From a virus, in the IMG/VR virus record IMGVR_UViG_3300030104_002795, positions 1-45,719 of that record: a stretch of DNA of 45,719 bases; one strand, given 5' to 3'. Shown here in pieces: positions 20,901 to 43,139 of the stretch; position 1 is the stretch's first letter; each line of letters starts with the position of its first letter. The notes under the pieces are model-generated. The model was not told the DNA's origin. It saw only the letters and a program-made list of their open reading frames with translations, and ran no database searches. Both the position numbers and the translations under genes were made by a program.

Positions 20901-23900
20901 CCAGTATTAACACCTGGTTATAACTGGTTAACTGGTCCAGGTAAATTAAAGCAAAAAGTTATTGATTCTCCATCTGCAAAGGGTATACGATATACAATAA
21001 AATTAGATAAACCTTTAAAGTGGAATCCATTAACAAGTACAACTACTTCAACACCATTAGTTGCTGTTCCTGAGTCTGTTGGAATCAATGATCATAGATT
21101 AACTTCAAAATCTAAAACATCACTACAGGTTGTTCAAGAAATTGAGGAAACAGAATCGTTTCACTCTTCAAGTCCAGCTGTATTTGAAACAGAACCAAAA
21201 GAAAAAATTGATTTAGACATATATTATGAAACACATCAAACGTTTCCTATAGCGCAAATTGGTGATGATAAAACATTAAAATGGCATAATTGCTTTGCTT
21301 TTGGTAATGGGTTAGAATCAAATAGAATAAGAGATGATTTTAATCAGGTGTTTGTAGATAAAGGAGCTAAAGCTTCAACTGTATTTGCTGAGCAATATCA
21401 AGAAGAAAGAAGAGAAACAGGTATGATATATTCTGGTATATTTAATTCTACATCTGGTATTAATAGATTAAATCAATTTATACAAGCAGAAAAAATAACA
21501 AAAGATGTTAACCCTTCTTACGGTTCTATACAAAAACTACATGCTCGTGATTCTGATTTAGTTGTTTTATGTGAAGATAAATGTTTAAAAGTATTAGCTA
21601 ATAAAGATGCGTTATTTAATGCTGATGGTAATACTAATGTAACAGCAACGTCAAATGTGTTAGGTCAGTCAATACCTTTTGTAGGTGATTATGGTATATC
21701 AAAAAATCCAGAATCATTTGCTTGTTATGCTTTTAGATCATATTGGGCTGATAAAGCAAGAGGTGCTGTAATAAGATTATCAAGAGATGGAATAACAAAC
21801 ATATCAGATAAAGGTATGAGAGATTATTTTGCTGATAATTTAAAAGGTGACAAGTATGAAGTATTGCCAGGTGGTTACGATGAAGATAAAGATATTTATA
21901 ATTTAACATTAAAGAAGACTAATAATTCTACAACTGGTGAAACAATTAGTTACTCTGAGTTTGCTAATGGTTGGACAAGTAGAAAATCATTTACACCACA
22001 GTCCAGTTTATCAATCAACGGAACGTATTATAGTATGTACGTTGGTAATTTATGGAGACATAATGATTCTAGTATAGATTATAGTAAATTTTATGATAGT
22101 GCTAGCCATGCTAGTGTTAAGTTTATATTTAATGACCAACCGTCATCAATTAAAAATTTCAAAACGTTAAATTACGAAGGTACTGACCCACAGCAAACAA
22201 AATACGCGGGTACTATAGCTGGTGTTAGTGGTTATGCTGGATTAACTATTGATGAGGTAATTGCTAAAAAACCTACATTAACTGAAAGTGATGCGCTTAC
22301 AACAAGTATAACAAAAGGTTGGTATTGTGATTCAATAACAACAAGCGAACAAACAGGTGAAGTAAAAGAATTTAAAGATAAAGAAGGTAAATGGTTTAGT
22401 AGCATTAGAAACAAATCAATTACAGCTACAGACTTACAAACAGGTGATGCTGCAAAAGAGTTTGCGATACAAGGTATTGGTAATGCTTCATCAAACTCAA
22501 CAGATTCACAAAATGTTAGTGGCGGAACAATAACATTATCACTAAATAAAGCAACTGGTGGCGCTACTTATGAAGTAAGTACGTTAGCACCGTTTATAAG
22601 AGAAAATGGCGCTGTAGATGAATCATTCACATTTGTTATATCACCATCAGATGGTAAAGTAGTTACAGCTGCAGATTTTGACTGCACAGGGGAAACAAGT
22701 TCACCTGTAAATGACGCTTTTAATCACGTTAATGTTACATTTGCTAATCAAAGTGAGGCTGATAGTTGTGGTAATTTTGGAACAGATAATACAGTACTAG
22801 TTACTGTGCCTTTAGACTTTACACATGGTGACGCGGCACAAAGTATTGTGGCTAACATAACAGGCAATGAACATAAAAGAAAATATACTGTTAAAGGTAC
22901 ATATACTACTAATGTAGAAAATGCAACACCTTCTAGTCAAAGTGGGGTAGCATATACAGCTACTGGTGAAGTTGGTGAAGACGTGTCAATATCATTTGAT
23001 CCATCTGATACTACCGCGACAACAAAAACATTTACAGTTACAGCAGGTAATAATTTTAAAGACCTTCCACCATTAGTACAGGTAAACACAACTGTAAAAG
23101 GTTTTCGTAGGCTAGCAAATAACTATACTTTTACTACATCTGATACTGGCACTCCGGGTAATGTAAATCATACCGCTAGAGCATTTACTGCAAAGGTAAA
23201 AATACCAAATGAAAATGCAGAAGATGATTTAATGTTTTTTTACGCAAAAGGTGAACCAACAGTAACAGCATCTTCAAATCAACTATATGAGTTTAATCTT
23301 GATCAAACATCGATACACCAAAATGGTGAAACAAGAACATTAACAGTATCCGGTGACACAAACGCACAAGTTATAGTTGATGTTAAAAACGCTGCTGATA
23401 GTAGTATAATAAGTGGTCCAGTGACTTTAACAATGGTAAATGGTCAAGCAACACAAGATATAGTATTTCCATTATCAAGTAGCTCAACAACATATACTGT
23501 AACAATAACAGAAACAGGTGCTAATAGATTTGATATGAGTGGTAGTTTTTCAGGTGCATCAGGCTCAGCTGGATCAAGAGTAAAAACACTAACTTTAAAT
23601 CAAAGAGCTGATGTTACTGTAACCTTTTCAGCAACAACATCAAGCAGTGATTTAACTATTGATGGTAACGCAACAACATCAAATATAACATCTACTGGTA
23701 AAGCGGAAACTGAAGAATATGAAGAAGTAACATTAACTTATGTGGTTGAATCAGGCAATAATGGCTCTATAACAGCTAATAGTGCAACAACTACATACAG
23801 CTTTGATCACACTAAATGGACAGGCACGTTGAGTGGTCTTGAGAAAACATTATCAAACGGTAGTATTGTTTCGTTTAGCGCATTGCAAGTTAGTATGAAT

Positions 23901-24599
23901 GATAACACAGCAACAATAACAGGTAAAGCAACAGTTGTAAAGTATGGTACAGCTAATGATACAACAACACTAGATGTTGATAACTTTTTAAGTGTAGTTG
24001 CTACTGCTCCTAGCGCTACATTACAAAGTGTAACGGTAGGCTTTAATACAGCTAAAACAATTACTATAGCTGGAACAGATCCACAGGGAGGTACAGACTT
24101 AGTGTTTGCTATTCACACTCAGCCAAACAACGGTACATTAAGTAGTATAACAGAGGGTAGTGGTTTAACATCAACTGTTGTTTACACGCCTAACAGTACG
24201 TTTAGCGGTGCTGATTCGTTTAAGTTTACCGTTAGTGATGGCACAACAACAAGTTCACCTGCGAGGGTATTAATTACCGTTAATGGTCAATCATTCCAGT
24301 GGTCTGTTGACAATAGAGGTGGTGCTGATGCTAACGCTGTTTGTAATCAACCTTGGGGTACAGGTAGTCAAATTGACACTGTTTACGCAGCTGCTAATCA
24401 CGCTTTTGCTCCTGGTTTACGTTTTTACACTGACGCTACATTAACAACACCATATAACCCCGCGACAAATGGAACATCATCTGCGCCAAATGATTCACAT
24501 AGATTTACATTAGGTGCTGCTGGTGGAAACTGTGGTTACCACGGTATAATAGGATCAATAGGTCATGTGAGTATAGTATATGACTGCTGTAACACTTAA
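17964..24599 (+). CDS. Giant tail hub (P22 gp10-like) with Ig/cadherin-like C-terminus
   Basis: A 2211-residue protein. Residues 1-60 (FTSGRMNKDLDERIISKNEY, then RDALNVDIVTSEGSNVGSLQ, NIRGN) are the signature start of the tail 'stabilisation' proteins of crAss-like and other short-tailed phages, followed by a long beta-rich region consistent with the propeller/needle-hub fold. From about residue 1450 the sequence turns Thr/Ser-rich with repeated Ig-like strands, and residues about 2015-2106 form a cadherin-like module (TVVYTPNSTFSGADSFKFTV, then SDGTTTSSP). The last 100 residues include several Cys and His (GNCGYHGIIG, YDCCNT). N-terminal part: tail assembly plug; C-terminal part: probably surface-exposed adhesin modules fused to the hub. 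Confidence 0.75.
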   Translation: MPEIKNIFTSGRMNKDLDERIISKNEYRDALNVDIVTSEGSNVGSLQNIRGNKKVAEFKNDDGGVAIAGQQCIGSVRNTRTDKIYWFIAGTDRDAIVEYDPVINNHVPVLISVKATQDVLKFDTNYLITGVNIIDDLMFFTDDKNEPKCINIEQCKKGCASSNPYSTHTNFHVDNVSQGVMKEEYITTIKKYPLNAPTLTMARTKDANRTGVSTCTMKDSAGDFVSGTDQRPSGYVTGYLKFQPAPHFKTGDIVKLTAPTDDVNNDDELVVRIKLTGAPDKHSGGTYVRFKAIILSMSSELANTGIVWTAALEKEDPIFELQFSRFAYRWKYSDGEYSAFSPFSEVAFLPDHDVEGNIFDAKDGYNLTMTNQLRSLILSNFDERPKGCIEVDILIKQVNDTNVYTIKTLTNKGAKEELDTVESGGSGFEVVSEQVHAVLPSNQLLRPYDNVPRKAKAQEVTANRVVYGNYLQNFDLEGAQPIFEPYITPNKFDDADINKAKPSLKSIRTYQVGVVLLDEYGRQTPVLTDDSAIVKISQADSDKQNTLKCNIKGVKQTTFNAPSWATHFKYFIKENSNEYYNLPLDRFYKSEDGNMWLSFVSSDRSKVDEETYLILKKSHTENVATKHDNEEKTLKYKIIFISDTVPTFLVKRKVSLGKITTVFGVSTTANKGDRTGFPQESFLSFNVPGIEISGDHSPFKDVATDGVGDKYIQISTGTSVSDVYKIQSIEPVNAAKLDTVIDYSSTYPVASTGVADPDDTDTKDEGDFWTITLTKAFGEDINFVGEKGESEVSNLSLELFKEEDEDKKPEFDGKFFVKVNRDKYLEEYLVANKVEKKWITLYEQNISYITLGGSAVGAAAQRTALSGRQDYFKGSSDEAGEGWSIDKGAFIFNHPAGIAGKPADMHAIGKGISGKTLELRFTALGKPKDPLTKDPSPGDFSNQSKYGFHEALKKDGTYLKFEHDDSVPEDDRYYKIEGTPVLTPGYNWLTGPGKLKQKVIDSPSAKGIRYTIKLDKPLKWNPLTSTTTSTPLVAVPESVGINDHRLTSKSKTSLQVVQEIEETESFHSSSPAVFETEPKEKIDLDIYYETHQTFPIAQIGDDKTLKWHNCFAFGNGLESNRIRDDFNQVFVDKGAKASTVFAEQYQEERRETGMIYSGIFNSTSGINRLNQFIQAEKITKDVNPSYGSIQKLHARDSDLVVLCEDKCLKVLANKDALFNADGNTNVTATSNVLGQSIPFVGDYGISKNPESFACYAFRSYWADKARGAVIRLSRDGITNISDKGMRDYFADNLKGDKYEVLPGGYDEDKDIYNLTLKKTNNSTTGETISYSEFANGWTSRKSFTPQSSLSINGTYYSMYVGNLWRHNDSSIDYSKFYDSASHASVKFIFNDQPSSIKNFKTLNYEGTDPQQTKYAGTIAGVSGYAGLTIDEVIAKKPTLTESDALTTSITKGWYCDSITTSEQTGEVKEFKDKEGKWFSSIRNKSITATDLQTGDAAKEFAIQGIGNASSNSTDSQNVSGGTITLSLNKATGGATYEVSTLAPFIRENGAVDESFTFVISPSDGKVVTAADFDCTGETSSPVNDAFNHVNVTFANQSEADSCGNFGTDNTVLVTVPLDFTHGDAAQSIVANITGNEHKRKYTVKGTYTTNVENATPSSQSGVAYTATGEVGEDVSISFDPSDTTATTKTFTVTAGNNFKDLPPLVQVNTTVKGFRRLANNYTFTTSDTGTPGNVNHTARAFTAKVKIPNENAEDDLMFFYAKGEPTVTASSNQLYEFNLDQTSIHQNGETRTLTVSGDTNAQVIVDVKNAADSSIISGPVTLTMVNGQATQDIVFPLSSSSTTYTVTITETGANRFDMSGSFSGASGSAGSRVKTLTLNQRADVTVTFSATTSSSDLTIDGNATTSNITSTGKAETEEYEEVTLTYVVESGNNGSITANSATTTYSFDHTKWTGTLSGLEKTLSNGSIVSFSALQVSMNDNTATITGKATVVKYGTANDTTTLDVDNFLSVVATAPSATLQSVTVGFNTAKTITIAGTDPQGGTDLVFAIHTQPNNGTLSSITEGSGLTSTVVYTPNSTFSGADSFKFTVSDGTTTSSPARVLITVNGQSFQWSVDNRGGADANAVCNQPWGTGSQIDTVYAAANHAFAPGLRFYTDATLTTPYNPATNGTSSAPNDSHRFTLGAAGGNCGYHGIIGSIGHVSIVYDCCNT

Positions 24600-24610
24600 A
24601 ATAAATAAAT

Positions 24611-24982
24611 ATGGCTACAAGAATAATAACAATACCTTTTGCGAAATCATTAAATGTTTCATTACACGCAACAAAAGCATTTGTTGCTGGTGAAGATAGA
24701 GCTCATGATCAGGTTTATAAAAAGGCATCAAATGGAACAGTTACTCACTTAGGTGATTTAGTTGCTGTTAATAAAACAGCAAAAACTATAGACGTTAGTG
24801 TTGACTCTAGTTTAACAAAACCGGTTGTAAGTAGTGGTGAGTTTATATTTTTTGGTAAAAATCAAACAACAGGAACATCAGGTATGACTGGTTATTACGC
24901 AGAAGTAGAAATGAAAAACGACTCAACAAGTTACGCAGAATTATTTGCCGTAAGCTCTGAAGTTTTTGAGAGTAGTAAATAA
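24611..24982 (+). CDS. Hypothetical small tail protein
   Basis: A 123-residue beta-rich protein (RIITIPFAKSLNVSLHATKA, then FVAGEDRAHDQVYKK and EFIFFGKNQTTGTSGMTGYY). It follows the giant hub by 11 bases and precedes the ejection proteins. No signal or catalytic motif is seen. Thr/Ser-rich strands and placement suggest a minor virion component, perhaps attached to the hub; the function is unknown. Confidence 0.65.
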   Translation: MATRIITIPFAKSLNVSLHATKAFVAGEDRAHDQVYKKASNGTVTHLGDLVAVNKTAKTIDVSVDSSLTKPVVSSGEFIFFGKNQTTGTSGMTGYYAEVEMKNDSTSYAELFAVSSEVFESSK

Positions 24983-25030: not shown

Positions 25031-25819
25031 ATGCCACATCATTATTTCGATAATTTAAAACCAAAGGAACTTCAGCCTTTAGATATATCTGTACCGCCGG
25101 TGACATCGTACTTGCCAAGCAACACGCTGTCTTACAGGAGTACTGCACAAGTACAACAAATTGATCCTCCAAAACCTAGCGGTGGTGGTTTGTCGGCAGG
25201 TGGCGCTGGTTTAATAGGTACAGGCGCTGGCATGATGGGGCAGGGAGCAGGTCAAATTGCTGCGTGGACACAAAGAAAATCAAAATATGCAGAGCAAAGA
25301 AAAGCAAACGATGAGCACACGCAAATGAGACAAAGATACATGTCTTTAGATGTAGGTGATCCATATAGAGATATGACAAACCCATTTGAAAATATGACTG
25401 TAAATCAACAGCAAGCTCAATTTGAAGCACAACAGCAGCAACAAGGGATGGCAAATATGATGAGTGCGTTGCAGGGTGCAGCTGGTGGTAGTGGTATTGC
25501 TAGTTTAGCACAAATGATGGCTAATCAACAAACAAGAAACTTATCAAGAGCATCAGCTAGTATAGGTATGCAAGAACAACAAATAGGTATGATGGCCGCT
25601 CAAACAGAAGCTAGAAGACAAGAACAAGGAGCTATGATAGCTAGAAAAGATGCGCGTGATTCAGCAGGTACATTACTAGGTATAAGTATGGAAAGAAAAG
25701 GTGCGGCAGATAAAGCAGCAGAAGAAGCAAGAATGGGGTTAGGCATGGGAATATTTAACACGATACAAGGCGCTGGATTAGTAGCCGCTGGAGCTATGAC
25801 AGGTGGTGCAAGTGGTTAA
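25031..25819 (+). CDS. Internal virion (ejection) protein, Gly/Ala/Gln-rich
   Basis: A 262-residue protein. A Pro-rich start is followed by GAGLIGTGAGMMGQGAGQIA (glycine-zipper-like), a Gln/Met-rich helix (MTVNQQQAQFEAQQQQQGMA, then NMMSALQGAAGGSGIASLAQ) and a second amphipathic Gly/Ala helix at the C-terminus. The pattern 'YRDMTNPFENMTVNQQQAQF...' is common to small internal proteins of many marine tailed phages. Amphipathic Gly/Ala helices suit proteins that are ejected ahead of the genome and form a channel through the cell envelope. First gene of a three-gene ejection block of rising size. Confidence 0.7.
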   Translation: MPHHYFDNLKPKELQPLDISVPPVTSYLPSNTLSYRSTAQVQQIDPPKPSGGGLSAGGAGLIGTGAGMMGQGAGQIAAWTQRKSKYAEQRKANDEHTQMRQRYMSLDVGDPYRDMTNPFENMTVNQQQAQFEAQQQQQGMANMMSALQGAAGGSGIASLAQMMANQQTRNLSRASASIGMQEQQIGMMAAQTEARRQEQGAMIARKDARDSAGTLLGISMERKGAADKAAEEARMGLGMGIFNTIQGAGLVAAGAMTGGASG

Positions 25820-25836
25820 TAAATAAATAAATAAAA

Positions 25837-28020
25837 ATGGCAGATAAAGGATTAATAGAATCAGCAAGACGTATGTATGGCGCTAAAGACGCCGCAAGAC
25901 AAGAAGCTAAAAAAGATATGCTTCGCTCAGGTGAAATACTATATAGAGGTTTACGTGACTTTGGCGCTATGCAGCAAAGAGAAAAAATGATGAAAGAATC
26001 TATGGCTTTTCGTGAAAAAAGTCTTCAAGAATCTATGAGATTTCGTCAAGAGCAAATGGACTGGCAGAAATTAAAGTACGATGAAATGCAGCAACAAAGA
26101 GAATATGATCGTATAGCTCAAAATTCAGCTCAGTTACAATATAATTTAGGAAAAGTAAATGAAGATCCAGCTGTATTAGTGGGTCCCTCATTAAACTTTT
26201 ATAAAGATGAAATATCAAAATTAAGTGATATGATTGCTAAAAGAGAGGGAGATCCAAAGCAACTAACAGAACAAAGACAAAAATTACTTAATGAACTATC
26301 TACAGCGTCAGGTCAGTACACTACGTTTTTAGATGGCGCTAGACAGATTATGGGTATGAATCTTAGCGATCCTAATGCTTTACCTGATTTCGATATGATG
26401 TCTAACGATCCAAAGTCTTTAAAAGCAAAAAAAATGTGGACAACTGTTATAAATGGTATGCAAGATGGCACTGCTAAATTTAACTTTGATGGTGGAGACT
26501 TTACTATTACAGCTAATTTTGATGGTAAAGAACCAAGCACAGTAAAGCTTAATGAATCTGGTATGTTAGATTACAACCTTAAAAACAGTGGCAAAGGTAA
26601 TGAGTTGTTTGGTATATATGGTAATAGTGTAAACGCCGCAATAACTGGTACTCAAGCAAATGCTCAACTATTAGCAACAAACTACGCTGCTAGTTTAAGT
26701 TATAACGATGTTGTTTCTTTATCAAGAGACTATGATCCCAACTGGAACGGCACTGATACATCAACGTTTAAATATAATAGATTTATAGGTGAAGATGGTA
26801 AAAGAGTAGAGATGATAAACAACACATGGATGGATGCGCAAAATATATGGTGGGACGAAATAAGAAATACAATGGGTGTTTCAGGTAATGAGCAAGAGTG
26901 GAAAGATAATGAGGGTAATACATATAAACGTAGCGGCGAAGGAGCAGATATGAGATGGACTAAAACAGATGCTAATGGTAATATGTCAGAACATGAGTGG
27001 TGGAATGATAAAGGTTGGTCTGGAGATAACGGTACTGGGGTAAAACTTAGAGATGCTTTTTCTAACTGGTTAGGTGATATAAGTGCTGACTACATAAACA
27101 AAACACATTATAAACCAAAACCACCAACAGGAAGTAGATTTAAACCACCTGCTGATTTAGGAAGCACATTTGCTCAGGTACAAGACATTATTGATAATGG
27201 TCAATTAAATAGATTAAAAGGTATAAAGTTTGGAGATCAACGAATAAATCAAATTGAACAACAAGAAGATGGAACATTTAACTTGCTGTTCTCAAGTGTT
27301 ATGGGAGGTGATTATGAGTCTGGTGCTATAGTTAATATAGATCTTACAAAGAAAGGTACCGCTAAAGAAACATTATTTAATTATATCGGAGATGTAGACT
27401 CTGGAAATGTTTATACAGCGCCAAGGTACGCAAAATTGAACTTAAGCATTGATAATGAAGTTGTAGAAACAGAAACACCAGAAACACCACTACCAGATCC
27501 AGAAAATTTAACGTTAGAAGATGCAAAAGCAATGCTTAAATTACATCAGGACACCATGAATAGTGAAGGGAACTTAGGAGCAAGTGGTTATCCTACTTTA
27601 GAAAATCTAAACAAGGAAACTGAATTACAAAACATGGTTGATGATCTTCAAGATAAAGAAAATGCTAAAACAGCAAAAAGTGTAGTGAGAGTACAAGACA
27701 ATAAAAACGCTCTAGCTAGTGCAAAAAAGATTATAGCTAATTTTGAAAAGATAAAAGCTAATGATTTCTTTACCCCGCGAACGATGAACCTTGTAAAAAG
27801 ATTTGCTGAAGCAAGTGATGTTATAATTGATCCAGAAAAAGGTATTACCAAAGAACAGAGAGACAAAATCGCGGAAGACCGAGGGTTTGATAAAAACGCT
27901 ATGTATAGTGATGTAATGAAAATGTTTTATAATCAGTTTGATAACTTACTACAATCTAAAAACATTTCTGAAGAAACAAGGAAAAAAATTGAAGAGTTAA
28001 AAAATAGTCTTGAAAATTAA
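25837..28020 (+). CDS. Internal virion protein, 727 residues
   Basis: Second gene of the ejection block. Residues 1-100 form a highly charged coiled coil (MLRSGEILYRGLRDFGAMQQ, REKMMKESMAFREKSLQE, SMRFRQEQMDW); the middle (200-560) contains beta-rich and Trp/Asn/Gly-rich segments (DAQNIWWDEIRNTMGVSGNE; HEWWNDKGWSGDNGTGVKL); residues 570-727 are helical and acidic. No enzyme motif is recognised. Its length, coiled coil and place between two other internal proteins suggest a structural role in the ejection apparatus. The leader upstream is a TAAATAAATAAATAAAA tract. Confidence 0.65.
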   Translation: MADKGLIESARRMYGAKDAARQEAKKDMLRSGEILYRGLRDFGAMQQREKMMKESMAFREKSLQESMRFRQEQMDWQKLKYDEMQQQREYDRIAQNSAQLQYNLGKVNEDPAVLVGPSLNFYKDEISKLSDMIAKREGDPKQLTEQRQKLLNELSTASGQYTTFLDGARQIMGMNLSDPNALPDFDMMSNDPKSLKAKKMWTTVINGMQDGTAKFNFDGGDFTITANFDGKEPSTVKLNESGMLDYNLKNSGKGNELFGIYGNSVNAAITGTQANAQLLATNYAASLSYNDVVSLSRDYDPNWNGTDTSTFKYNRFIGEDGKRVEMINNTWMDAQNIWWDEIRNTMGVSGNEQEWKDNEGNTYKRSGEGADMRWTKTDANGNMSEHEWWNDKGWSGDNGTGVKLRDAFSNWLGDISADYINKTHYKPKPPTGSRFKPPADLGSTFAQVQDIIDNGQLNRLKGIKFGDQRINQIEQQEDGTFNLLFSSVMGGDYESGAIVNIDLTKKGTAKETLFNYIGDVDSGNVYTAPRYAKLNLSIDNEVVETETPETPLPDPENLTLEDAKAMLKLHQDTMNSEGNLGASGYPTLENLNKETELQNMVDDLQDKENAKTAKSVVRVQDNKNALASAKKIIANFEKIKANDFFTPRTMNLVKRFAEASDVIIDPEKGITKEQRDKIAEDRGFDKNAMYSDVMKMFYNQFDNLLQSKNISEETRKKIEELKNSLEN

Positions 28021-28024
28021 ATAG

Positions 28025-31000
28025 ATGGAAAATCTAAACAATAATGATAGAATTCAACAGCTGTATAACCAGTTTATTGAAGTAGGTATTAAACCAACCG
28101 AACCAGAAGAATCAGCATGGGAGAGAGAGTTTCGTGAGTCAGGGGAAAATATATTAAACGCAATTGGTAATATAAGTACAGATATTAAATCACAATTCAA
28201 ATCATTTCAGGTTAGTACTGTTGATTTCTTAAAAAAAACCGCTGGTGAGGGTTCAGTAGATGCATTGCTTGGTGATTACGATGATTGGATGGATGAAAAA
28301 TACAAAGAAATTGCCGAATTAAATTTAAAAAGAAAGTCAACTGGTGAAGGTATAGTTAGAGGTGTAAAGCAAGGTGATGTTTCTGATATTGTGGGTGGTG
28401 TTGCCAATGTTTTCGGCAGTCTTACAACAACATTAGTCCCTATGTTTTTAACAAGGGGTATGTCTTTAATACCACAAATTGCCTCACCTTTTGTTACAGA
28501 TTTTAATGTTGAAAAAGCTAAAACTTTATATGGCGATGATCCAGATGCCATGAAAAAATTAATAGAAAATGATGAGACAGATTTTTTCAAACCAGCAGCA
28601 ATGGGTATTGTGGCTGGTTTATTTGAAAGAGCTGGTATAAAAGGTATAACAAAGTATATTACACAAAACGCAACAAAAGGAAGAGGAGCTTTAATGCTTT
28701 TAAACACAGGGGTTAGAGAAGCTAATACTGAGTTAATACAATACGCTATGGAAAACACAAATAAAAGCGTAGCTCAGGGTAACAGTGCAGCTAAAGCCGC
28801 TGCAGATGGTTTTTTATCAATAAATAGCGAAGAGGGTTTAGAATCTTGGGTGCAGGGTTTTGTTGGTGGAACTGGATTTGGGGCTGGTGGAAGATTAATT
28901 AACAGAGCTTTAAGAAGCGACACAGACGGGCAGAAATTTGTAGCACAAAGCTTGAGGGATTTATCTAAAATAAATGAACGAAAACTTTTACCTGGCACAA
29001 CTAAATCAGAAATTGATGCGCTGGAAATTGAATCAAAAAACATAGAAAATAATCTTAGAACATACTTATTAGATAATCAAAAAATTGGCAATTTATTAGA
29101 CAATGAACAAAAAACAGAATTACAAGATTTAATAATAGAAAAAGATAAAATAAGAAATACATTAAAAGGTTTAAAATCTGATTTTGAAGCTGGTAAGATT
29201 ACACAGCAATCATATGGTGGTAGAGTTAGAGGTGTTGTAAATAGATATAGTAAAATTAACGAAAGAATATCTGATATAAAAAGCTCAGTTGATATAACTC
29301 AATATGAAACACAAAAACAAGCAGTAGAAGAAGGCGCTAAAGAAGCGGGTCAAAAAGTACAGGAAATAGGTAAGGTTGAAAAAACAAAATTATTAAAAGA
29401 GCAAGGCTATAAAGGTCAAGAGCTTAAATCATTAACAGATGATGTTGCTGGTATGTATAACCCAAAAGATAAAACATTATACTTAGATAAAGAAACCGCG
29501 TTAGAGGTTGGTGAGATTAATGTTGCAGGTCATGAGTTATTACATCCTGTGTTTAATAAACTTATAGGTGATGATGCTGCTCAAGGTAAAATTGTTGAAG
29601 ATTTTAAAAAGCAATTAACACAAGATGATCTTGATACGATGGAAGTTGAGATGGCATCAAGGGGTTATGGTATAAATAGTGGTAAATATAATACAGAATA
29701 TATAAATGTATTTTCTGATAGCATAACAAAAAACAAAGTTAAATTTAACGATACTGTGTATAGCAAAATTGGTGATGTTATAACTGGTTTATTTAAAGGT
29801 GTTGGATTTAAAAATATATCGTTTGACTCTGGTAGAGGTGTTTATAACTTTTTAAAAGCATATCATCAAGGTTTAGATACTGGTAAGTTTGATCAAGATG
29901 TTTTAACTATCTTGGAAAAAACTAAAGGCATGAAAGATAAACTTGCTGGTAAAGGTCAGTTGTCTAGAGCTACACCATTAGAGGAAATAAATACTTTAGT
30001 ACCCAATACAATAAAAACAAAAACAGATTATGAGGGATTTCTTGATAACCGAAGAAATAGTGCTAAGCTGTTTGAGTCTATATATAGCCCAGGCGGTGTA
30101 ATAAACAACTATATAAGAAAAAGACAAACATCGCAACAAGAGGGAGACAAAACAATTGAAAATACAATTGATAGAATATTAAACTTTAACCCTGAGGCAA
30201 CGAGAGCTGACGGATCTGTTGTTGGTATTGAAGGTTTTGGTGAGGCTATATTTGCTAACACAAGGTTTGGTAAGCTTGATGCTAGAAAAGATTTAGCTAT
30301 TGAAAATGAAAGAAGAAAAATCGAAGGTGGTGATATGGAAGTAGCAGCTAAAGTTGTTGCTCAAGAAAAAGCAGATGATATAATTGAGACAACTAAAGAA
30401 ACTAAACCAACACAAGTTAAATCAGACCCTACTAAATTTGATGGTGTTCCTAAGGGTATATCATTAAAATCAAAGCCAGATAAAGATTTAAATGTAAAAG
30501 ACATTGACAAGAAATACACAGGTGAAGTTGGTGAACAAATATTTAATATACCATCTAGTAAAATAACAAAACCAGCAAATAACTTAACGTTACCAGAAGC
30601 GAGAACAATACAACAATTTTTTGGTAAGTCAGATAATTTAAATAGGTTTATTAAAATATTACCTGAATTTAATGTTGCGACTAACATAACACAAATTGGT
30701 TTGGAAAAACTAGATGTGCCAAAAGATGTTAGGGGTGTATCACTTGGTATAACAAAAACTATACAAGATTTATTTTATGAAAATTATGTAGATCCAAAAG
30801 GTGAAATGACTACACCAAAAGGTAGAAGCAAAGGAGCAACAAGTCAAACACCAGTAAAAAGACTAAAACCTGAGTTTAGAGGTACAATCACAAAGGAGAC
30901 ATTAGACGCAGTAAGATCTAAAATAGGTATAACACCTAGTGGTGAGCTTAATGTGCTCCCTAAGGGCGCAGAAAGATCCTCTATTGGACAGTCATTAAAG

Positions 31001-34000
31001 GGTATGGCTAAGTTGTTTAGCCAGTTAACAGCAACTACACTTGTAAGAAAAGCATTACCAAAAGCAACAGCAAAAGAATTAGTACCAAGTAAAGCTGGAA
31101 CAAGAGACATACAGTTAAGTGTGGGGTATAATGAAATTTCTAATATACGTGATATAAAAACGGTTGTAAAAAAATTAGGTATAAAAGACTTGAACAATCT
31201 AACTATAGAACAAGTTAAAGACAAAATTAAAAAAGCAAAACTACCTAGTACTGTAATTAAGTATGGTAATTTAGCAAATTTTGGTGCTAAAAGAGTTGCT
31301 TTAAAAAACAAAGGAATTAAATCTAGAGCCGCTGATATTGCTTCTCTTGAAAACTTTTTAAAAGAAAATAAATTAAAAGAGCCTAATAAAAATCAATATT
31401 ATTATAAATTAAATGATGGTACTTGGGTAAAAGGTGATAAAGGAAGTAAACCAGGTACTTACGTACAGCCAAAAGCATATTTAGATAAACTAACACCAGC
31501 TAGAGGCGGTATGTTTTATAGTGCAAAACATGATCCAAATTACCTAGAAATAATAAAAGAAGCAGAAAAAAATGATGCAAAATTTAATTTTACAAAAGTA
31601 AAAAGAATAAAAATAAAACCAGGTCAAAAATTAACAAAAAAGGATAAAATAAAAAACAAACAACAGGAGGTTGATAACATGAACAACTTTGAATTGTGGG
31701 TTAAAGCGTTAAATGATGCTCATAATAAAAATGGTTTACCTATGGAAATAGTGTCAGCAATAATATTAGGCGCTTATCAATCAACTAATGGTATAATAAA
31801 AATAGCAGCTCCATTTAAATATGTGTCTGATAAATTTGAATACTCATCTAAAAGTAAAAAAGGACCTAAATACGTAGAAGAACACGCTCCACCTGCGTCT
31901 GTAATTGGGGCAGATATAATTAAAGCCATACAGAGCAATGATGTTGAAAATAGACTTCCTAAAATAAGAAAAAACTTTTATCAAACACAATTATCTAAAA
32001 AAGATGACGCGCTTTTTAGAGCAGCAAAACTTGACGCAACTTTACCTGAAGGCACTAGTGTAGAATCAGATCTAGCTGGAGCTTTTAGAATGTCAGAAGC
32101 TGGTATAGACTTAAATACTATACGTAACATACAAACTGGTAAAACAATAGCGGAAGAAATTGGTGTGCAATTACCTAAAGGAGTAAAAATGACACCTGAA
32201 TTATTACAAACAACAAAAGAGGTTGTTAGAAAAATTGTAAAAGATGGGGAAAAACCTAGTAAATTAATTAAAGAAATACAAGCTGAATCTAAATTAGTTA
32301 ATCAGTTTAGTAGAGCAAGAAAACTTAATGTTAAAGACTTTAATTTCTTAAAAGAAAACATGACTACTGAGGAGCAAGTTAAAATGCTTGATGTTTATGA
32401 TAAAGCAATGGAAGTTTCAAGAGATCCAAATGCTAGTGAAAAGGGTATAAGTGTTTTTGATTTTGATCAAACATTAGCTAACACAACAGAAAATGTTATA
32501 GTTAACATGCTTGATGGTACCTCAAAAGAAATAACAGCAGCGGAGTTTGCAAACACAGCTTCAGATTTAGAGGCAGAAGGTGCTACGTTTGATTTTTCTC
32601 AATTTGAAAATGTAAAAGGTGCAACTAAAGGCCCGTTTTTTGAATTGGCTCAAAAAATTAACGACAAGTTTGGAAGTAAGGATATATTTGTATTAACAGC
32701 AAGACCTCAGTCTGCTGATGTTGCGATACACGCATATTTAAAAGGTGTTGGGTTAGAAATACCTATAGAAAATATAACAGGTTTAGAAGATGGTAGACCA
32801 GAATCTAAAGCAAATTTTGTTGTACAAAAAGTAGCTGACGGTTATAATAACTTTTTCTTTGGTGATGACGCATATAAAAATGTAAAAGCTGTACAAAAAG
32901 TTTTAGATATAGTTGATGTAAAAAGAGATGTACAACAAGCTAAAATACAATTTAGTAAATCTGCTAGCAATGAATTTAATAAAATATTAGAACAAACAGC
33001 TGGTATGAAAGCTGAAGCTAGATTTTCAGATGCAGCAGCTAAAACAAGAGGTGCTAAATCTTTACCATGGTACAAAAGGTGGTTTATACCACCATCAGCA
33101 GAAGATTTTACAGGTTTATTATATCACTTTGTAGGTAAAGGTAAACAAGGTGAAGCGCAGATGAAATTTTTTAAAGATAAATTAATTGATCCATTTGCAA
33201 GAGCATATAAAAATATAAACGCAGCTAAACAGTTGTTAGCTAATGAGTTTGATACTTTACAAAAACAATATCCACAGGTAAAAAAATTATTTAAGAAAGA
33301 CTCTGGGTATAATAATTTTACCAATGAGCAAGCTATAAGAGTTTATTTGTGGGATAAAAATGGTATTGAAATACCTGGTATATCTAAAAAAGACTTAAAA
33401 AATTTAACTAAAATAGTTAAAGACAACGCTGATATGAAAGTTTTTGCTGATAAATTAGGTAGCATAACTAAATTACCAGATGGTTATATAGCACCTAGTG
33501 ACAGTTGGACCGGTGAAACTATTGGCTCTGATATTATTAATGTAAGTAATAAAGAAAATAGAGCTAAATACATGAAAGAATTTATTGACAATAAAGAGTT
33601 AATATTTTCTAAAGAAAACTTAAATAAAATACAAGCTATATACGGAACTGATTTTAGATCATCGTTAGAAGATATATTATGGAGAATGGAAAATGGAACT
33701 AATAGAAGAACTGGTCAAAGTAAATTAGTTAATCAATGGACGGAGTGGGTTAATAATTCTGTTGGTGCAATAATGTTCTTTAATTTTAGATCAGCTGTAC
33801 TACAAACTATATCAGCTGTTAACTTTGTTAATTGGAGTGACAATAACCCATTAAAAGCAGGTGCTGCAATAGCAAACTTTCCACAGTATGCAAAAGACTT
33901 TGCCACTTTATTTAACTCAGACATGTTAAAACAAAGAAGGGCGGGATTACAAACAGATGTTAACGCGTCTGAAATGGCTGAATCTGTAGCTGGATCTAAA

Positions 34001-35008
34001 AACAAAGTAAATGCAATGATAGCATATTTACTTAAAAAAGGGTTTTTACCCACACAGATTGCTGATAGTTTTGCAATATCTTCAGGTGGTGCTACGTTTT
34101 ATAGAAATAGAATAAACACATATAAAAAACAAGGGTTATCAGATAAAGAAGCTGAGTCAAAAGCTTTTAAAGATTTTCAAGAAATATCTGAGGTATCACA
34201 ACAGTCAAGTAGACCAGACCTTATATCACAACAACAAGCTGGTCCACTAGGTAGATTAATATTAGCTTTTCAAAACACACCTATGCAGTACACGAGGTTA
34301 ATGAAAAAAGCAGCGTTAGATTTAAAAAATGGTAGAGGTGATACAAAAACTAACATATCTAAGATATTATATTATGGTGCTGTACAAAACATTCTATTCT
34401 CAGCATTACAAAATGCTATGTTTGGGTTAATGTTTGAAGATGAAGAAGATGAGAAAGTTAAAGAAAAATATGATAAGAAAATGTCAAGAATGTTAAATAA
34501 CATGTCTGACACTATATTACGTGGTATTGGTGTTTATGGTGCTGCTGTATCAACAATTAAAAATGTAGCCCTTAAATTTATACAAGAAGAAAAAGAAGGT
34601 TATAGAGCAGATCATGCTTATACTATAATTGAAGCAATTAATTTATCACCACCAATTGGTAGTAAAATTAGAAAAGTATATTCAGCTACACAAACATATA
34701 AATTTAATAGAGATGAAATAAAAGAAAAAGGTTTATCTCTTGACAGTCCAGCTTATGGTGCTGTTGGTAATGTTATATCAGCTGGTACAAATATACCTAC
34801 AGATAGAGTATATAATATAGTAAACAATGCTCAAGCAGCGTTAGATAAAAACAACGCGGCGTGGCAAAGAATTTCTGTTGCGTTAGGTTGGAACAAATGG
34901 GATGTTGGTATTAAAGATCAAAAAGATCTTGAGAAAACCAAAAAAGAAGATAAAAAACAAAACAGAAAAAATGGCTTTGGTGCAAATAAAGGATTTGGAA
35001 AGAATTAA
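28025..35008 (+). CDS. Giant polyvalent virion protein: zincin and HAD phosphatase-like domains
   Basis: A 2327-residue protein, last and largest of the ejection block. Residues 95-270 carry hydrophobic Gly/Ala helices. Residues about 440-560 contain a zincin motif HELLH (H503, E504, H507) after a YNPKDKTLYLDKETALEVG segment, as in phage-borne metallopeptidase domains. Residues about 1470-1625 form a HAD-like domain: DFDQTLANT (nucleophile D1479, D1481), LTARP (T1558), K1595 and FFFGDDAYK (D1614, D1615). The C-terminus contains LILAFQNTPMQYTRLM (about 2078-2093) and LFSALQNAMFGLMF, resembling large polyvalent-protein-associated domains of phages and conjugative elements. Such proteins enter the host with the DNA and act on host targets. 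No DxDxD RNA-polymerase motif was found. Confidence 0.8.
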   Translation: MENLNNNDRIQQLYNQFIEVGIKPTEPEESAWEREFRESGENILNAIGNISTDIKSQFKSFQVSTVDFLKKTAGEGSVDALLGDYDDWMDEKYKEIAELNLKRKSTGEGIVRGVKQGDVSDIVGGVANVFGSLTTTLVPMFLTRGMSLIPQIASPFVTDFNVEKAKTLYGDDPDAMKKLIENDETDFFKPAAMGIVAGLFERAGIKGITKYITQNATKGRGALMLLNTGVREANTELIQYAMENTNKSVAQGNSAAKAAADGFLSINSEEGLESWVQGFVGGTGFGAGGRLINRALRSDTDGQKFVAQSLRDLSKINERKLLPGTTKSEIDALEIESKNIENNLRTYLLDNQKIGNLLDNEQKTELQDLIIEKDKIRNTLKGLKSDFEAGKITQQSYGGRVRGVVNRYSKINERISDIKSSVDITQYETQKQAVEEGAKEAGQKVQEIGKVEKTKLLKEQGYKGQELKSLTDDVAGMYNPKDKTLYLDKETALEVGEINVAGHELLHPVFNKLIGDDAAQGKIVEDFKKQLTQDDLDTMEVEMASRGYGINSGKYNTEYINVFSDSITKNKVKFNDTVYSKIGDVITGLFKGVGFKNISFDSGRGVYNFLKAYHQGLDTGKFDQDVLTILEKTKGMKDKLAGKGQLSRATPLEEINTLVPNTIKTKTDYEGFLDNRRNSAKLFESIYSPGGVINNYIRKRQTSQQEGDKTIENTIDRILNFNPEATRADGSVVGIEGFGEAIFANTRFGKLDARKDLAIENERRKIEGGDMEVAAKVVAQEKADDIIETTKETKPTQVKSDPTKFDGVPKGISLKSKPDKDLNVKDIDKKYTGEVGEQIFNIPSSKITKPANNLTLPEARTIQQFFGKSDNLNRFIKILPEFNVATNITQIGLEKLDVPKDVRGVSLGITKTIQDLFYENYVDPKGEMTTPKGRSKGATSQTPVKRLKPEFRGTITKETLDAVRSKIGITPSGELNVLPKGAERSSIGQSLKGMAKLFSQLTATTLVRKALPKATAKELVPSKAGTRDIQLSVGYNEISNIRDIKTVVKKLGIKDLNNLTIEQVKDKIKKAKLPSTVIKYGNLANFGAKRVALKNKGIKSRAADIASLENFLKENKLKEPNKNQYYYKLNDGTWVKGDKGSKPGTYVQPKAYLDKLTPARGGMFYSAKHDPNYLEIIKEAEKNDAKFNFTKVKRIKIKPGQKLTKKDKIKNKQQEVDNMNNFELWVKALNDAHNKNGLPMEIVSAIILGAYQSTNGIIKIAAPFKYVSDKFEYSSKSKKGPKYVEEHAPPASVIGADIIKAIQSNDVENRLPKIRKNFYQTQLSKKDDALFRAAKLDATLPEGTSVESDLAGAFRMSEAGIDLNTIRNIQTGKTIAEEIGVQLPKGVKMTPELLQTTKEVVRKIVKDGEKPSKLIKEIQAESKLVNQFSRARKLNVKDFNFLKENMTTEEQVKMLDVYDKAMEVSRDPNASEKGISVFDFDQTLANTTENVIVNMLDGTSKEITAAEFANTASDLEAEGATFDFSQFENVKGATKGPFFELAQKINDKFGSKDIFVLTARPQSADVAIHAYLKGVGLEIPIENITGLEDGRPESKANFVVQKVADGYNNFFFGDDAYKNVKAVQKVLDIVDVKRDVQQAKIQFSKSASNEFNKILEQTAGMKAEARFSDAAAKTRGAKSLPWYKRWFIPPSAEDFTGLLYHFVGKGKQGEAQMKFFKDKLIDPFARAYKNINAAKQLLANEFDTLQKQYPQVKKLFKKDSGYNNFTNEQAIRVYLWDKNGIEIPGISKKDLKNLTKIVKDNADMKVFADKLGSITKLPDGYIAPSDSWTGETIGSDIINVSNKENRAKYMKEFIDNKELIFSKENLNKIQAIYGTDFRSSLEDILWRMENGTNRRTGQSKLVNQWTEWVNNSVGAIMFFNFRSAVLQTISAVNFVNWSDNNPLKAGAAIANFPQYAKDFATLFNSDMLKQRRAGLQTDVNASEMAESVAGSKNKVNAMIAYLLKKGFLPTQIADSFAISSGGATFYRNRINTYKKQGLSDKEAESKAFKDFQEISEVSQQSSRPDLISQQQAGPLGRLILAFQNTPMQYTRLMKKAALDLKNGRGDTKTNISKILYYGAVQNILFSALQNAMFGLMFEDEEDEKVKEKYDKKMSRMLNNMSDTILRGIGVYGAAVSTIKNVALKFIQEEKEGYRADHAYTIIEAINLSPPIGSKIRKVYSATQTYKFNRDEIKEKGLSLDSPAYGAVGNVISAGTNIPTDRVYNIVNNAQAALDKNNAAWQRISVALGWNKWDVGIKDQKDLEKTKKEDKKQNRKNGFGANKGFGKN

Positions 35009-37640: not shown

Positions 37641-37768
37641 TGGGATACGCAAGTGCAGCTCAACGTAAAGCAGTTTGGGCATCAAAAAACGAAAAGAAAA
37701 AAGGTAAAAAAAGAAAAGTAAAAAGAAAGAAAAATGCCAGCAAAAAGAAAAAGAAAACCAAACGTTAG
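37640..37768 (+). CDS. Extremely basic micro-protein, 42 residues
   Basis: Starts on the last base of the previous stop, behind AGGAG, one of the few Shine-Dalgarno-like boxes in the window. MGYASAAQRKAVWASKNEKK is followed by almost pure Lys/Arg; 21 of 42 residues are basic. The N-terminal AQRKAVWAS motif recurs in other phage micro-proteins. It overlaps the following gene by 35 bases in another frame. Composition suits a nucleic-acid-condensing peptide, but this is inference. Confidence 0.65.
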   Translation: MGYASAAQRKAVWASKNEKKKGKKRKVKRKKNASKKKKKTKR

Positions 37769-38006
37769 GAAAACTACAAAGGGTAAAAACAGAAACTTTA
37801 GATCAACTAAAGAAGGTGCTGGTATGACTAAAAAAGGAGTTGCTGCGTATAGACGTAAAAACCCTGGTAGTAAATTAAAAACCGCGGTTACTGGTAAAGT
37901 AAAAAAAGGTAGTAAAGCAGCTAAAAGAAGAAAATCATTTTGTGCTAGATCAAAAGGATGGACAGGTGAAAGAGGTAGAGCAGCAAGAAGAAGATGGAAA
38001 TGTTGA
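37734..38006 (+). CDS. Arg/Lys-rich 90-residue phage protein
   Basis: Thirty-five of 90 residues are Lys or Arg. The second half contains MTKKGVAAYRRKNPGSKLKT, AVTGKVKKGSKAAKRRKSFC and a closing ARRRWKC, a pattern shared by a widespread phage family of unknown function (possibly the one Pfam lists as DUF6321; from memory). The conserved Cys and Trp at the end argue for a folded core. Likely nucleic-acid-binding; it may be packaged with DNA. It overlaps the preceding micro-gene out of frame. Confidence 0.75.
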   Translation: MPAKRKRKPNVRKTTKGKNRNFRSTKEGAGMTKKGVAAYRRKNPGSKLKTAVTGKVKKGSKAAKRRKSFCARSKGWTGERGRAARRRWKC

Positions 38007-39910: not shown

Positions 39911-41647
39911 CTAACCATCACAACTTAAACAACTCTCTTGCATAGCTTGCTCAGCTATATCTCCTCTGAGAACTGATTCTGTTCTCATATAATATAAAGT
40001 TTTAATACCCTTCTTCCAAGCTTCTAAGTGTACTTTGTTAATAAACTTAGGATCAGCTTGAGCAGGAAACGCTAGATTTAAGCTAACAGCTTGATCTATA
40101 TACTGTTGTCTTATACCTGCTTGATTAACTAAATCTAGTTGATTAATCTCCTTAAACGTTTTATAAACTTCTTTTATAGGTATATCTCCTTCTGGACCTA
40201 CCTTAATCTTATCAAGTTCTTTTATTCCTTGAACAGATCCCCCATCAGTTAATATTTGATTCCATATTTTATCTGTATTTAAGTTATGTTCTTTTAATAC
40301 AGCTTCGAGCGTAGGGTTCCTACGTATGAAAGTCCCCTTAGCAGACTGATCAGTAAAAACGTTAGCGGCCCAAGGCTCAATGCCAGGGCTAATATTGCCG
40401 CTGAGCTTGCTATTACTAACAGTAGGAGCAATGGCACGAAGATGAGTGTTCCGCATACCAGTACCAACACACCAAAGAGGCTCACCAAATTCCTCAGCAA
40501 GCGCCATTGAGGCTCTTTCGCTTTCAATTTTAATCTGACTAAATATTCTTCTAGTTTCATATTGTGCTAATAATCCTTCGAAAGGAAAACCTTTCTGTTG
40601 TAAATATGTGTGCCAACCAAGAACTCCTAAACCTAAAGCTCTACCTTTTTCAGCAGACCTTATAGCGTTTTCAAATCCTCTTACATTTTTAGCTCTTTGT
40701 ATGAATTCTTCTAATACACCATCTAAAAACCATATACTATCATAGATTAAATTACTATCTTTCCACTCATGATATTTAGCTAGATTTAAACTAGATAAAC
40801 AACACACAAAACTATGTGATTCATCAGTGTGTAATACAATCTCTGAGCATATATTAGTCATAAAAACTTTTAATGCATTATCTTTATACATACTAGGGTT
40901 TTGTTTATTAACATTACCCTTGAACATTACATAAGGTTCTCCAGTTGCTTTACGTTTTTGTAATAACTTACTCCATTTACGTCTTGCAACTTTATCTCCA
41001 GCAGCTAATTTTCTCATAAACTTATCACTAATAACAGCACATTGATGCATGTTTAGTGATTGTCTATTTACATCACCTTTAGGTTCTCTAATTTCTAACC
41101 AGTCTTCCCAATCAGGATGATCTATATTCAAATTAACTGATGCGGCTCCTCGTCTTACACTTCCTTGATTTGTAGCTAATATAGTTGAATCATATATTTT
41201 ACAAAACGGTACAACACCATCTGATGTTCCATTGTTTGTAATTGTAGATCCAGCTGGTCTTATTTGATTTACACCAATACCAACTCCACCACCATGTTTA
41301 GCTAACAACATCATTTCTAAATTTTTGTTACCGATGTCATAGATTGAATCTGCAACATCAATACCAAAACAACTAATAGGAAAACCTCTATCAGTTCCCA
41401 TATTAGATAATACCGGAGAAGCTAAACATAACCATCCTTTCCAAATATATTCAAAGAATTTTTCTTCTAATTCAGGTTTGTTTAGTCTTTTTGCTGCAGC
41501 CTTAGCTACTCTTTCGTACGCTTCTTTAGGTGTTTCACCATTATAAAGGTATCCTCCAGTTATAGTTTTTTTATATACTTCAGCGTCTGCCCACTCTGGG
41601 TAATCAACGCCTTTTTTCCATCTATTACTCCACATCTCTAAAAACAA
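39911..41647 (-). CDS. nrdA: Ribonucleotide reductase class I alpha subunit, no ATP cone
   Basis: A 578-residue catalytic subunit reducing ribonucleoside diphosphates to deoxy forms. Active-site residues by family pattern: C93 in PISCFG, N265-x-C267-x-E269 in TNICSEI (radical cysteine C267), C282 in FVCCLSSLNL, the radical-transfer pair Y552-Y553 in LYYMRTES, and the C-terminal redox pair C573/C576 in ESCLSCDG. The N-terminal ATP cone of cellular NrdA is absent, consistent with a length near 580 rather than 760, so overall dATP inhibition is probably lost. Last gene of the leftward operon; its start overlaps the preceding small gene by 23 bases (ATG 41635 is an alternative start). Confidence 0.95.
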   Translation of the reverse strand: MFLEMWSNRWKKGVDYPEWADAEVYKKTITGGYLYNGETPKEAYERVAKAAAKRLNKPELEEKFFEYIWKGWLCLASPVLSNMGTDRGFPISCFGIDVADSIYDIGNKNLEMMLLAKHGGGVGIGVNQIRPAGSTITNNGTSDGVVPFCKIYDSTILATNQGSVRRGAASVNLNIDHPDWEDWLEIREPKGDVNRQSLNMHQCAVISDKFMRKLAAGDKVARRKWSKLLQKRKATGEPYVMFKGNVNKQNPSMYKDNALKVFMTNICSEIVLHTDESHSFVCCLSSLNLAKYHEWKDSNLIYDSIWFLDGVLEEFIQRAKNVRGFENAIRSAEKGRALGLGVLGWHTYLQQKGFPFEGLLAQYETRRIFSQIKIESERASMALAEEFGEPLWCVGTGMRNTHLRAIAPTVSNSKLSGNISPGIEPWAANVFTDQSAKGTFIRRNPTLEAVLKEHNLNTDKIWNQILTDGGSVQGIKELDKIKVGPEGDIPIKEVYKTFKEINQLDLVNQAGIRQQYIDQAVSLNLAFPAQADPKFINKVHLEAWKKGIKTLYYMRTESVLRGDIAEQAMQESCLSCDG

Positions 41648-41867
41648 CTTGTTTTACACGCATGTATTTTTGCATTTGTTTATATGTTGAGTCAGGTATA
41701 CTGTATAATTCTTCAGCCGTATAACTATATAAGTTGCCATTTTTGTCAACTAAAGTCCAGGCTAAAACATCATTAGTATCAATACACCAATCATTTGTTT
41801 TACGTAAGTCTACCTCTTTACTGTATAATAATGCAGTAAATAACGTAGTAATTAATATATATTTCAT
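41625..41867 (-). CDS. Small secreted protein between nrdB and nrdA
   Basis: An 80-residue protein starting with a short signal-like segment (MKYILITTLFTALLYSKEVD), followed by TNDWCIDTNDVLAWTLVDKN and YTAEELYSIPDSTYKQMQKY. It lies 18 bases after nrdB and overlaps nrdA, so it is translated with the reductase genes although it appears to be exported. It has one Cys in the mature part and is not a glutaredoxin or thioredoxin. The reading frame is preserved and has normal codon use; no family known to me beyond similar orphans in marine phages. Confidence 0.65.
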   Translation of the reverse strand: MKYILITTLFTALLYSKEVDLRKTNDWCIDTNDVLAWTLVDKNGNLYSYTAEELYSIPDSTYKQMQKYMRVKQVVFRDVE

Positions 41868-41885
41868 AATAATAAATTTTAATTG

Positions 41886-42845: not shown

Positions 42846-42996
42846 CGTAATCGTAAAATAATGTTAAACAACAATCAAATAACCCTAAATAGATTACATG
42901 ATCAACTTTTAATTCTGCTTCTTCTACATACTGTCTATATCCAAATAACAAGCCTGTAAATAATCCAAAACTTATTTCCCATCTAATTAATTTCAT
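42832..42996 (-). CDS. Small membrane-like protein, 54 residues
   Basis: ATG at 42996 overlaps the previous gene's TGA (ATGA) and the stop lies 14 bases inside nrdB. The sequence MKLIRWEISFGLFTGLLFGY, then RQYVEEAELKVDHVIYLGLF and DCCLTLFYD resembles a family of about 50-residue proteins with the core 'FGLxxGLLFGxRxY...DHVxYLxxxD' that I recall from many marine phages. Hydrophobic but not a standard transmembrane helix; function unknown. Overlaps on both sides support translation. Confidence 0.65.
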   Translation of the reverse strand: MKLIRWEISFGLFTGLLFGYRQYVEEAELKVDHVIYLGLFDCCLTLFYDYDGTI

Positions 42997-43139
42997 CTTC
43001 CTTGTCCTCTGTATTTAGTTCCACAATAATACTTACCATCTTTATTGTTGGTATGTTTGTTCTTTGAGTGAATTCCTGGGCGTTTTTTCTTTGGCTTTTC
43101 AAACCACATATTCATTCCAAATGTTTTTCTTTTAGCCAT
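42993..43139 (-). CDS. Basic micro-protein, 48 residues
   Basis: ATG at 43139, 8 bases inside the nuclease gene, and TGA at 42993. The sequence MAKRKTFGMNMWFEKPKKKR, then PGIHSKNKHTNNKDGKYYCG, TKYRGQGR is a type seen repeatedly in phages: the 'KKKRPGxHSKxK...KYRGQGR' core is conserved in my recollection. It contains a His/Cys set and an Arg-rich end, suggesting nucleic-acid binding. Found in the replication operon, unlike the other micro-proteins, which sit in the late region. Confidence 0.75.
   Translation of the reverse strand: MAKRKTFGMNMWFEKPKKKRPGIHSKNKHTNNKDGKYYCGTKYRGQGR

Follow-up and report, generated by a model that had tools for sequence, protein, structure and literature searches.

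A giant polyvalent-type protein with predicted zincin and HAD phosphatase domains, a probable virion cargo of a flavobacterial-type podovirus

Genomic context of the giant gene

The window analyzed in this study represents an entire IMG/VR virus record of 45,719 bases, which is possibly a genome fragment itself. Its structural module is arranged in the order TerL (phrog_6681), portal (phrog_6547), capsid and ring-type virion proteins, muzzle, three smaller ORFs and the giant gene, the latter being encoded among the virion genes of the window. The 2327-residue protein described in an earlier note on this DNA corresponds to an uninterrupted ORF that starts with ATG, contains no internal stop codons and encodes a protein of 259 kDa. 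Genes and protein features considered below are summarized in Table 1.

Table 1. Coordinates of the giant gene, its domains and motifs, and the genes preceding it in the window.
Feature	Position	Strand	Basis
Muzzle protein, 2211 aa	17964..24599	+	crAss_MUZ_C PF25729 E 1e-7; phrog_14478 E 2.7e-129
123-aa ORF	24611..24982	+	resembles C-terminal end of other muzzles
262-aa ORF, slot of MS/MS-detected phi40:1 gp99	25031..25819	+	via L001 209-aa ORF, itself matching phi38:1 gp99
727-aa ORF, slot of MS/MS-detected phi40:1 gp100	25837..28020	+	gene order alone
Probable giant polyvalent-type cargo/ejection protein	28025..35008	+	ORF, translation, family of relatives
Conserved N-terminal domain, residues 103-454, likely packaging/ejection module	28331..29386	+	iterated HMM, leave-out controls
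Predicted gluzincin-type metallopeptidase domain, residues ~430-625	29312..29899	+	37-sequence alignment with HExxH+E invariant; AF2 pLDDT 88.2; weak gluzincin fold match
HELLH zinc/catalytic motif, residues 503-507	29531..29545	+	conservation
E558, predicted third zinc ligand	29696..29698	+	invariant 37/37 and 110/110
Hypervariable exchanged central region, residues ~640-1230	29942..31714	+	comparison of relatives; without family match
EHxxP-signature domain, residues ~1231-1400; E1286, H1287, P1290, D1328 invariant	31715..32224	+	alignment
Predicted HAD phosphatase domain, residues ~1470-1640, Pnkp-3'-phosphatase-like fold	32432..32944	+	alignment, Pfam by member, AF2 pLDDT 87.4, VIA-align Z 12.1 to T4 Pnkp
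HAD motif I, D1479-F-D1481	32459..32467	+	97/97
HAD motif II, T1558-A-R1560	32696..32704	+	97/97
HAD motif III, K1595	32807..32809	+	97/97
HAD motif IV, D1614-D1615	32864..32869	+	97/97
Conserved C-terminal domain, residues 1645-2300, family hallmark	32957..34924	+	37-sequence alignment; Gundel_1 gp74 match

The structural module is collinear with gp90-gp101 of Cellulophaga phage phi38:1. For the 727-aa ORF, a sequence match to the counterpart of phi40:1 gp100 was not found. In total, 87 records were matched by TerL at 1e-5, namely 68 Flavobacterium, 15 Cellulophaga, two Tenacibaculum and one Maribacter record as well as the environmental podovirus ctfjg026 (62.8%); Crassvirales records were absent from these 87 matches. 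TerL thus groups the phage with flavobacterial phages of the Elemovirus, Pervagoviridae and Pachyviridae type, and the C-domain of the muzzle is the only crAss model matched in this phage. Based on the affinities of TerL and the collinearity with phi38:1, the phage probably represents a crAss-related podovirus of the flavobacterial type located outside Crassvirales proper. Matches of the giant protein's C-terminal domain in a genome collection were confined to contigs from metagenome bins, approximately half of them Bacteroidota and the others scattered across phyla. This scatter is as expected of misbinned phage contigs, and the host assignment is a putative one.

Further features of the window were recorded. 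Muzzle residues 1628-2113 match a separate 691-aa gene in relative L001, the 123-aa ORF following the muzzle corresponds to the C-terminus of the phi38:1 and elemoE muzzles, and window positions 17964-24982 accordingly represent a rearrangement of the muzzle gene; the muzzle end in the window bears a Big_9/cadherin-like domain. At positions 211-4443, a tail fibre-like protein with a C-terminal Peptidase_S74 (endosialidase chaperone) domain is encoded. A small ORF extremely rich in Lys/Arg (37734-38006) stands between the giant gene and an endolysin-like gene, with other small basic ORFs around it. The block at 39911-45660 (-) encodes nucleotide-metabolism functions, comprising the large and small subunits of RNR, a Holliday junction resolvase-like protein, a MazG-like protein and thymidylate synthase, and a short ORF at the record end matches the C-terminal part only of DNA primase/helicase.

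A large family of mosaic relatives

No HAD, zincin or polymerase families were detected in the whole-protein Pfam/PHROG scan, and the case was therefore built from relatives. The giant protein likewise matched none of the LPD Pfam models, and in tblastn the full-length sequence matched no named phage at 1e-5. Two relatives were obtained in a single-sequence search. A profile of the C-terminal region detected 46 loci. In 27 of them, DFDxT was accompanied by LTAR and FADD at a spacing, and HExxH occurred before residue 1600 in 39. Furthermore, a HAD profile search of IMG/VR showed that at least 545 confirmed relatives or contigs encode the HAD of the giant protein. Among the best 80 of these at least 545, all HADs were located in giant ORFs, some of which are truncated where the contig stops, and the HMMs of the C-domain, the zincin and the N-domain matched 78, 70 and 59, respectively, in the same order; nearly all of these best 80 featured the architecture zincin, variable middle, HAD and C-domain. 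All HAD-bearing members found are uncultured. As judged from these sequence comparisons, the giant protein, which the earlier note had treated alone, is not a singleton but belongs to a large family of giant phage proteins that is uncatalogued; such a mosaic family is not visible from a single sequence. In the scans run, named Pfam/PHROG families of phage proteins were matched neither by the family as such nor by its N-domain, its C-domain or the HAD/kinase payload (see below).

C-domains in the 37-sequence alignment are 40-57% identical to that of the window protein, and six of the 37 weakly matched DUF885 (best 3e-4). Comparison with the PDB yielded marginal helical allergens only, which were taken as chance matches. 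The EHxxP domain, which immediately precedes the HAD and is common among relatives whether or not these have a HAD, did not match the PDB. In one relative, an SLT transglycosylase domain was observed at the N-terminus (2.2e-7). The giant protein of ctfjg026 (L052:741-12320, 3859 aa), named 'reticulocyte binding/rhoptry protein' in the public record, contains two HExxH segments (1615 and 2500), and the segment at 2500 matches the zincin profile at 7.8e-7.

The predicted zincin domain

The earlier note had drawn attention to an HELLH motif, which was located at residues 503-507. HExxH arises in 0.15% of shuffles of the 2327-aa protein. H503, E504, H507 and E558, the last of which had not been named before, are invariant in 37 aligned relatives. 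In a broader set of 110 sequences, E504, H507 and E558 occur without exception and H503 in 106, with the domain itself diverging to 10-28% identity. The predicted structure is a confident model (pLDDT 88.2). A Foldseek search with this model returned noise only, and a second structural comparison placed gluzincins at the head of the list with a best Z score of 5.9. Moreover, the Pfam families M78, SprT and DUF6782 were weakly matched by a few members, and a PDB profile search with the zincin alignment yielded no matches. Given the lack of a Foldseek match and Z scores not exceeding 5.9, the assignment of a zincin fold is tentative, drawn mainly from the ligand set and the weak M78/SprT/DUF6782 matches.

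The predicted HAD phosphatase domain

Residues D1479, D1481, T1558, K1595, D1614 and D1615, previously proposed as a complete set of HAD motifs, were each found at the position given. Together with R1560 and N1619 they are invariant in 97 distinct HAD sequences, all of which contain motifs I (DxD), II (T/S), III (K) and IV (DD) in this order; the catalytic residues were already invariant in a first alignment of 20 HADs. DUF2608 was matched by 18 of these 20 members (best 7.2e-7), and PF00702 and PF12710 were matched by single members. The HAD fold, whose presence in a predicted structure had been named as a check, was recovered with a pLDDT of 87.4. In structural alignments (VIA-align), T4 Pnkp 3'-phosphatase (5uj0) was the closest chain, with Z 12.1 and an rmsd of 2.2 over 126 aligned residues, and bacterial Pnkp1 (4xru) scored Z 11.9. 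T4 and bacterial Pnkp made up the top six chains (Z 10.7-12.1), other HADs reaching at most 9.8, and many HAD chains scored above Z 8, which indicates a Rossmannoid HAD core fold. At the profile level, a short weak match to the T4 PseT phosphatase was observed with hhalign (21 columns, E 0.002, probability 13%), and mammalian PNKP was matched in a PDB profile at E 0.71. Hence, both lines of the earlier proposal, a zincin and a HAD in one late-module protein, were borne out by conservation, family searches and structure prediction, with the structural match of the zincin being the modest part. The predicted HAD is very likely an active phosphatase.

Exchange of the central region and nested domains

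Comparison of close relatives revealed that the middle of the protein and the HAD are swapped between them. L016 and L019 share C-domains that are 97.7% identical and an N-terminal stretch of 91% identity, with most of the middle at 17-24%. Similarly, the C-domains of L006 and L007 are 99.2% identical and most of their N-terminal halves only 20-45%. On the C-domain tree, the presence of the HAD changed eight or more times, seven of these changes being forced by well-supported branches. As many relatives do without the HAD, the platform does not depend on it. Screening the middle regions of 41 relatives against Pfam yielded one DUF7125 match only.

In three relatives (L029, L030 and L046), unlike in the window protein, motifs I and II of the HAD are separated by an inserted P-loop kinase. 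These inserts match AAA_33 (best 1.3e-15) and also Zeta_toxin. Taken alone, the three kinase inserts align to the T4 PseT kinase over 151 columns (E 8e-6), and with two phage homologues added the match reached 1.8e-10; one homologue makes up the N-terminal part of a phage protein of 721 aa that bears the annotation RNA ligase. The nested kinases are located at residues ~2004 (L029), ~2124 (L030) and ~2581 (L046) and constitute an unusual kinase-phosphatase architecture. In L019, residues ~1636-1800 contain an ART-PolyVal-like ADP-ribosyltransferase domain apparently inserted in the HAD, the match (E 0.0086) being sub-threshold. Several unrelated catalytic domains are thus combined in one chain, namely zincin and HAD, joined in relatives by kinase, ART-like or SLT domains. 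As a separate observation, L024, L027, L031 and L048 contain inserts of 170-360 aa between HAD and C-domain that share ITGTGDA/ITGTGNA...SR..LY; the three scanned against Pfam were without match.

In the relatives, the domains combined with the HAD, above all the nested kinase, associate it with the chemistry of polynucleotide ends rather more than with that of small molecules. The removal of phosphates from nucleic acid ends, as suggested in the earlier note, therefore gains from T4 Pnkp as nearest fold and from the PNK-like kinase in the HAD of three relatives; for the window protein, a polynucleotide substrate is plausible at slightly under even chances.

Packaging into the virion

The N-domain is common to phi38:1 gp101, phi13:2 gp127, Gundel_1 gp74 and elemoE gp18. 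An HMM built from environmental relatives only matched these proteins at 2.7e-34, 1.2e-32, 3e-44 and 8.8e-40, respectively, and an HMM built without the window detected the window protein at 2.3e-17. The products gp97-gp101 of phage phi40:1 are annotated 'based on experimental MS/MS proteomics analysis', phi38:1 gp101 is the counterpart of phi40:1 gp101 by position and length, and the giant gene holds the slot of phi40:1 gp101. Furthermore, the crAss001 post-muzzle proteins gp45, gp46, gp47, gp49 and gp50 were identified as virion cargo by MS (PMC10172136). Because N-domain homology and slot agree with an MS/MS-detected protein, and post-muzzle proteins of crAss001 are cargo, packaging and ejection of the giant protein are well-founded inferences. 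The earlier designation as a virion protein was a guess; it now has a basis in a detected homologue, which is an indirect one for the window protein itself. Overall, the giant protein is likely virion cargo.

Proposed function and alternative readings

The reading proposed here, which we consider evenly balanced, is that the giant protein is an ejected polyvalent-type protein delivering two enzymes, a protease that processes itself and a phosphatase that heals polynucleotide ends. Its conserved N- and C-domains would serve as a platform by which the protein is packaged close to the portal and leaves through the tail with or before the genome. The gluzincin would then cut a polypeptide, most likely its own, in the capsid or on entry and thereby free the payload, consisting of the central cassette and the HAD domain. 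Self-processing by the zincin, although a little short of probable, is at least as likely as the inactivation of host proteins suggested in the earlier note. The HAD would act as a Mg-dependent aspartyl-phosphate phosphatase of the polynucleotide 3'-phosphatase sort and, within the first minutes of infection, heal the 3'-phosphate termini that host nucleases generate in RNA or DNA. An enzyme pre-made in the virion could help before phage genes are expressed, and the giant protein may in this respect be a ready-made kit for the first minutes of infection. According to the T4 record, PseT and RnlA repair tRNA in restrictive prr hosts.

The same ejected protein could instead carry a small-molecule phosphatase, i.e., a 5'/3'-nucleotidase acting on nucleotides or signalling nucleotides. 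Foldseek ranked class C acid phosphatases first (E ~1e-3), class B enzymes reached Z ~9, and the genome features the nucleotide-metabolism genes for RNR, MazG and thymidylate synthase. T4 Pnkp and bacterial Pnkp1, however, rank above the acid phosphatases in structural alignment, and the kinase nested in three relatives aligns to a polynucleotide kinase, leaving this alternative doubtful. Less likely still is that the HAD and/or the zincin target host proteins, as protein phosphatase or host-directed protease, and disable defences or physiology. Host-protein-cleaving gluzincins are among the weak zincin matches and secreted bacterial effector HADs among those at Z ~9, but middling scores of this kind are shared by many folds, the inserted kinase suggests nucleic acids, and Iyer et al. 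2017 (PMC5512222) treat autoprocessing as an equally open option.

In a third alternative, the protein would be the equivalent of crAss001 gp47, a subunit associated with a virion RNA polymerase, and its zincin and HAD would take part in starting transcription. The earlier note had placed the gene where crAss-like phages encode a virion polymerase; the slot after muzzle and cargo genes does match that of gp47, which is annotated as an RNA-polymerase subunit, is of comparable mass (259 vs 262.5 kDa) and also contains an HExxH segment, at its end. Homology to gp47 was nevertheless undetected, and the clade is without a detectable crAss-type polymerase. Profiles of the N-, zincin and C-domains produced nothing significant against crAss001 gp47, gp49 and gp50 or phi14:2 gp65-67, and kinship to these proteins was dropped. 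As also noted before, a polymerase motif is absent, DxDxD occurring nowhere in the giant protein. A search with the phi14:2 gp66 polymerase matched 145 records, with Crassvirales and F. psychrophilum phages among them, and among the matches listed there was no Pervagoviridae, Pachyviridae or Elemovirus host; 12 relative records were likewise without match, which is weak evidence as this search had no positive control. Taken together, a polymerase-associated role is very improbable. Even more remote is a purely structural ejection protein with enzyme-like domains as relics: the HAD is missing in many relatives and the zincin in a few, but the catalytic residues persist in 97/97 HAD and 106-110/110 zincin sequences despite divergence elsewhere.

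Extending the proposed reading of an ejected end-healing protein to the whole family, a widespread group of flavobacterial podoviruses might inject a polymorphic 'payload protein', in which a conserved packaging and processing chassis (N-domain, protease and C-domain) carries exchangeable central cassettes and an end-healing phosphatase or kinase-phosphatase for pre-emptive repair against RNA- or DNA-cleaving host defences at entry. This scenario is speculative and, at present, rather unlikely. If it is true, virions would also bring in, already made, end-healing enzymes of the kind with which T4 counters defence by tRNA cutting, and counter-defence cassettes could be read from the hypervariable middle of a family with at least 545 IMG/VR members. 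Moreover, a testable function would be available for the slot adjoining crAss-type cargo genes in phages without detectable virion RNA polymerase.

Comparison with known systems

The crAss001 cargo protein gp47 resembles the giant protein in position, size and the presence of an HExxH segment, but detectable homology between the two is absent. Towards the C-terminus of gp47 (L051:6120-13145, 'putative RNA-polymerase subunit'), HEAFH occurs at residue 2157, and residues 1703-1862 match an exonuclease (phrog_298, E 1e-6); instead of a polymerase subunit, gp47 may be another protein of the polyvalent type.

Among flavobacterial phages, gp101 of phi40:1 and phi38:1 (Pervagoviridae) likewise ends the collinear structural module and contains a homologous N-domain, the phi40:1 protein being detected in virions by MS/MS, whereas phi38:1 gp101, with 1691 aa, is devoid of zincin, HAD and a recognisable C-domain. 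Gp74 of Tenacibaculum phage Gundel_1 (Pachyviridae, 'structural protein') shares the N-domain, the HExxH domain and part of the C-domain (hhalign 7.8e-8), but lacks the HAD and features another middle. Similarly, gp18 of Flavobacterium phage elemoE (Elemovirus, 3694 aa, 'structural protein') shares the N-domain and the zincin (1.3e-14), but bears DUF3293 and neither HAD nor recognisable C-domain.

T4 Pnkp (PseT) is alike in the HAD fold and in a kinase alignable to that of L029, L030 and L046. In T4, the kinase is followed in tandem by the HAD within a small free enzyme, whereas the relatives nest the kinase inside the HAD of a giant late-module protein.

Concerning polyvalent proteins, their domain models were unmatched by the window protein, ART-PolyVal being sub-threshold in relative L019, and the main text describing them is without HAD phosphatases ('phosphatase' occurs 0 times; PMC5512222). 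Polyvalent proteins commonly carry zincins, combined with unrelated enzymes and encoded among late genes (PMC5512222). The giant protein agrees with them as a giant multi-domain product of a late gene with a zincin-like MPTase (HExxH+E), unrelated enzymes in one chain and domain shuffling. We rate it as working like a phage polyvalent protein and as a fresh version of such proteins.
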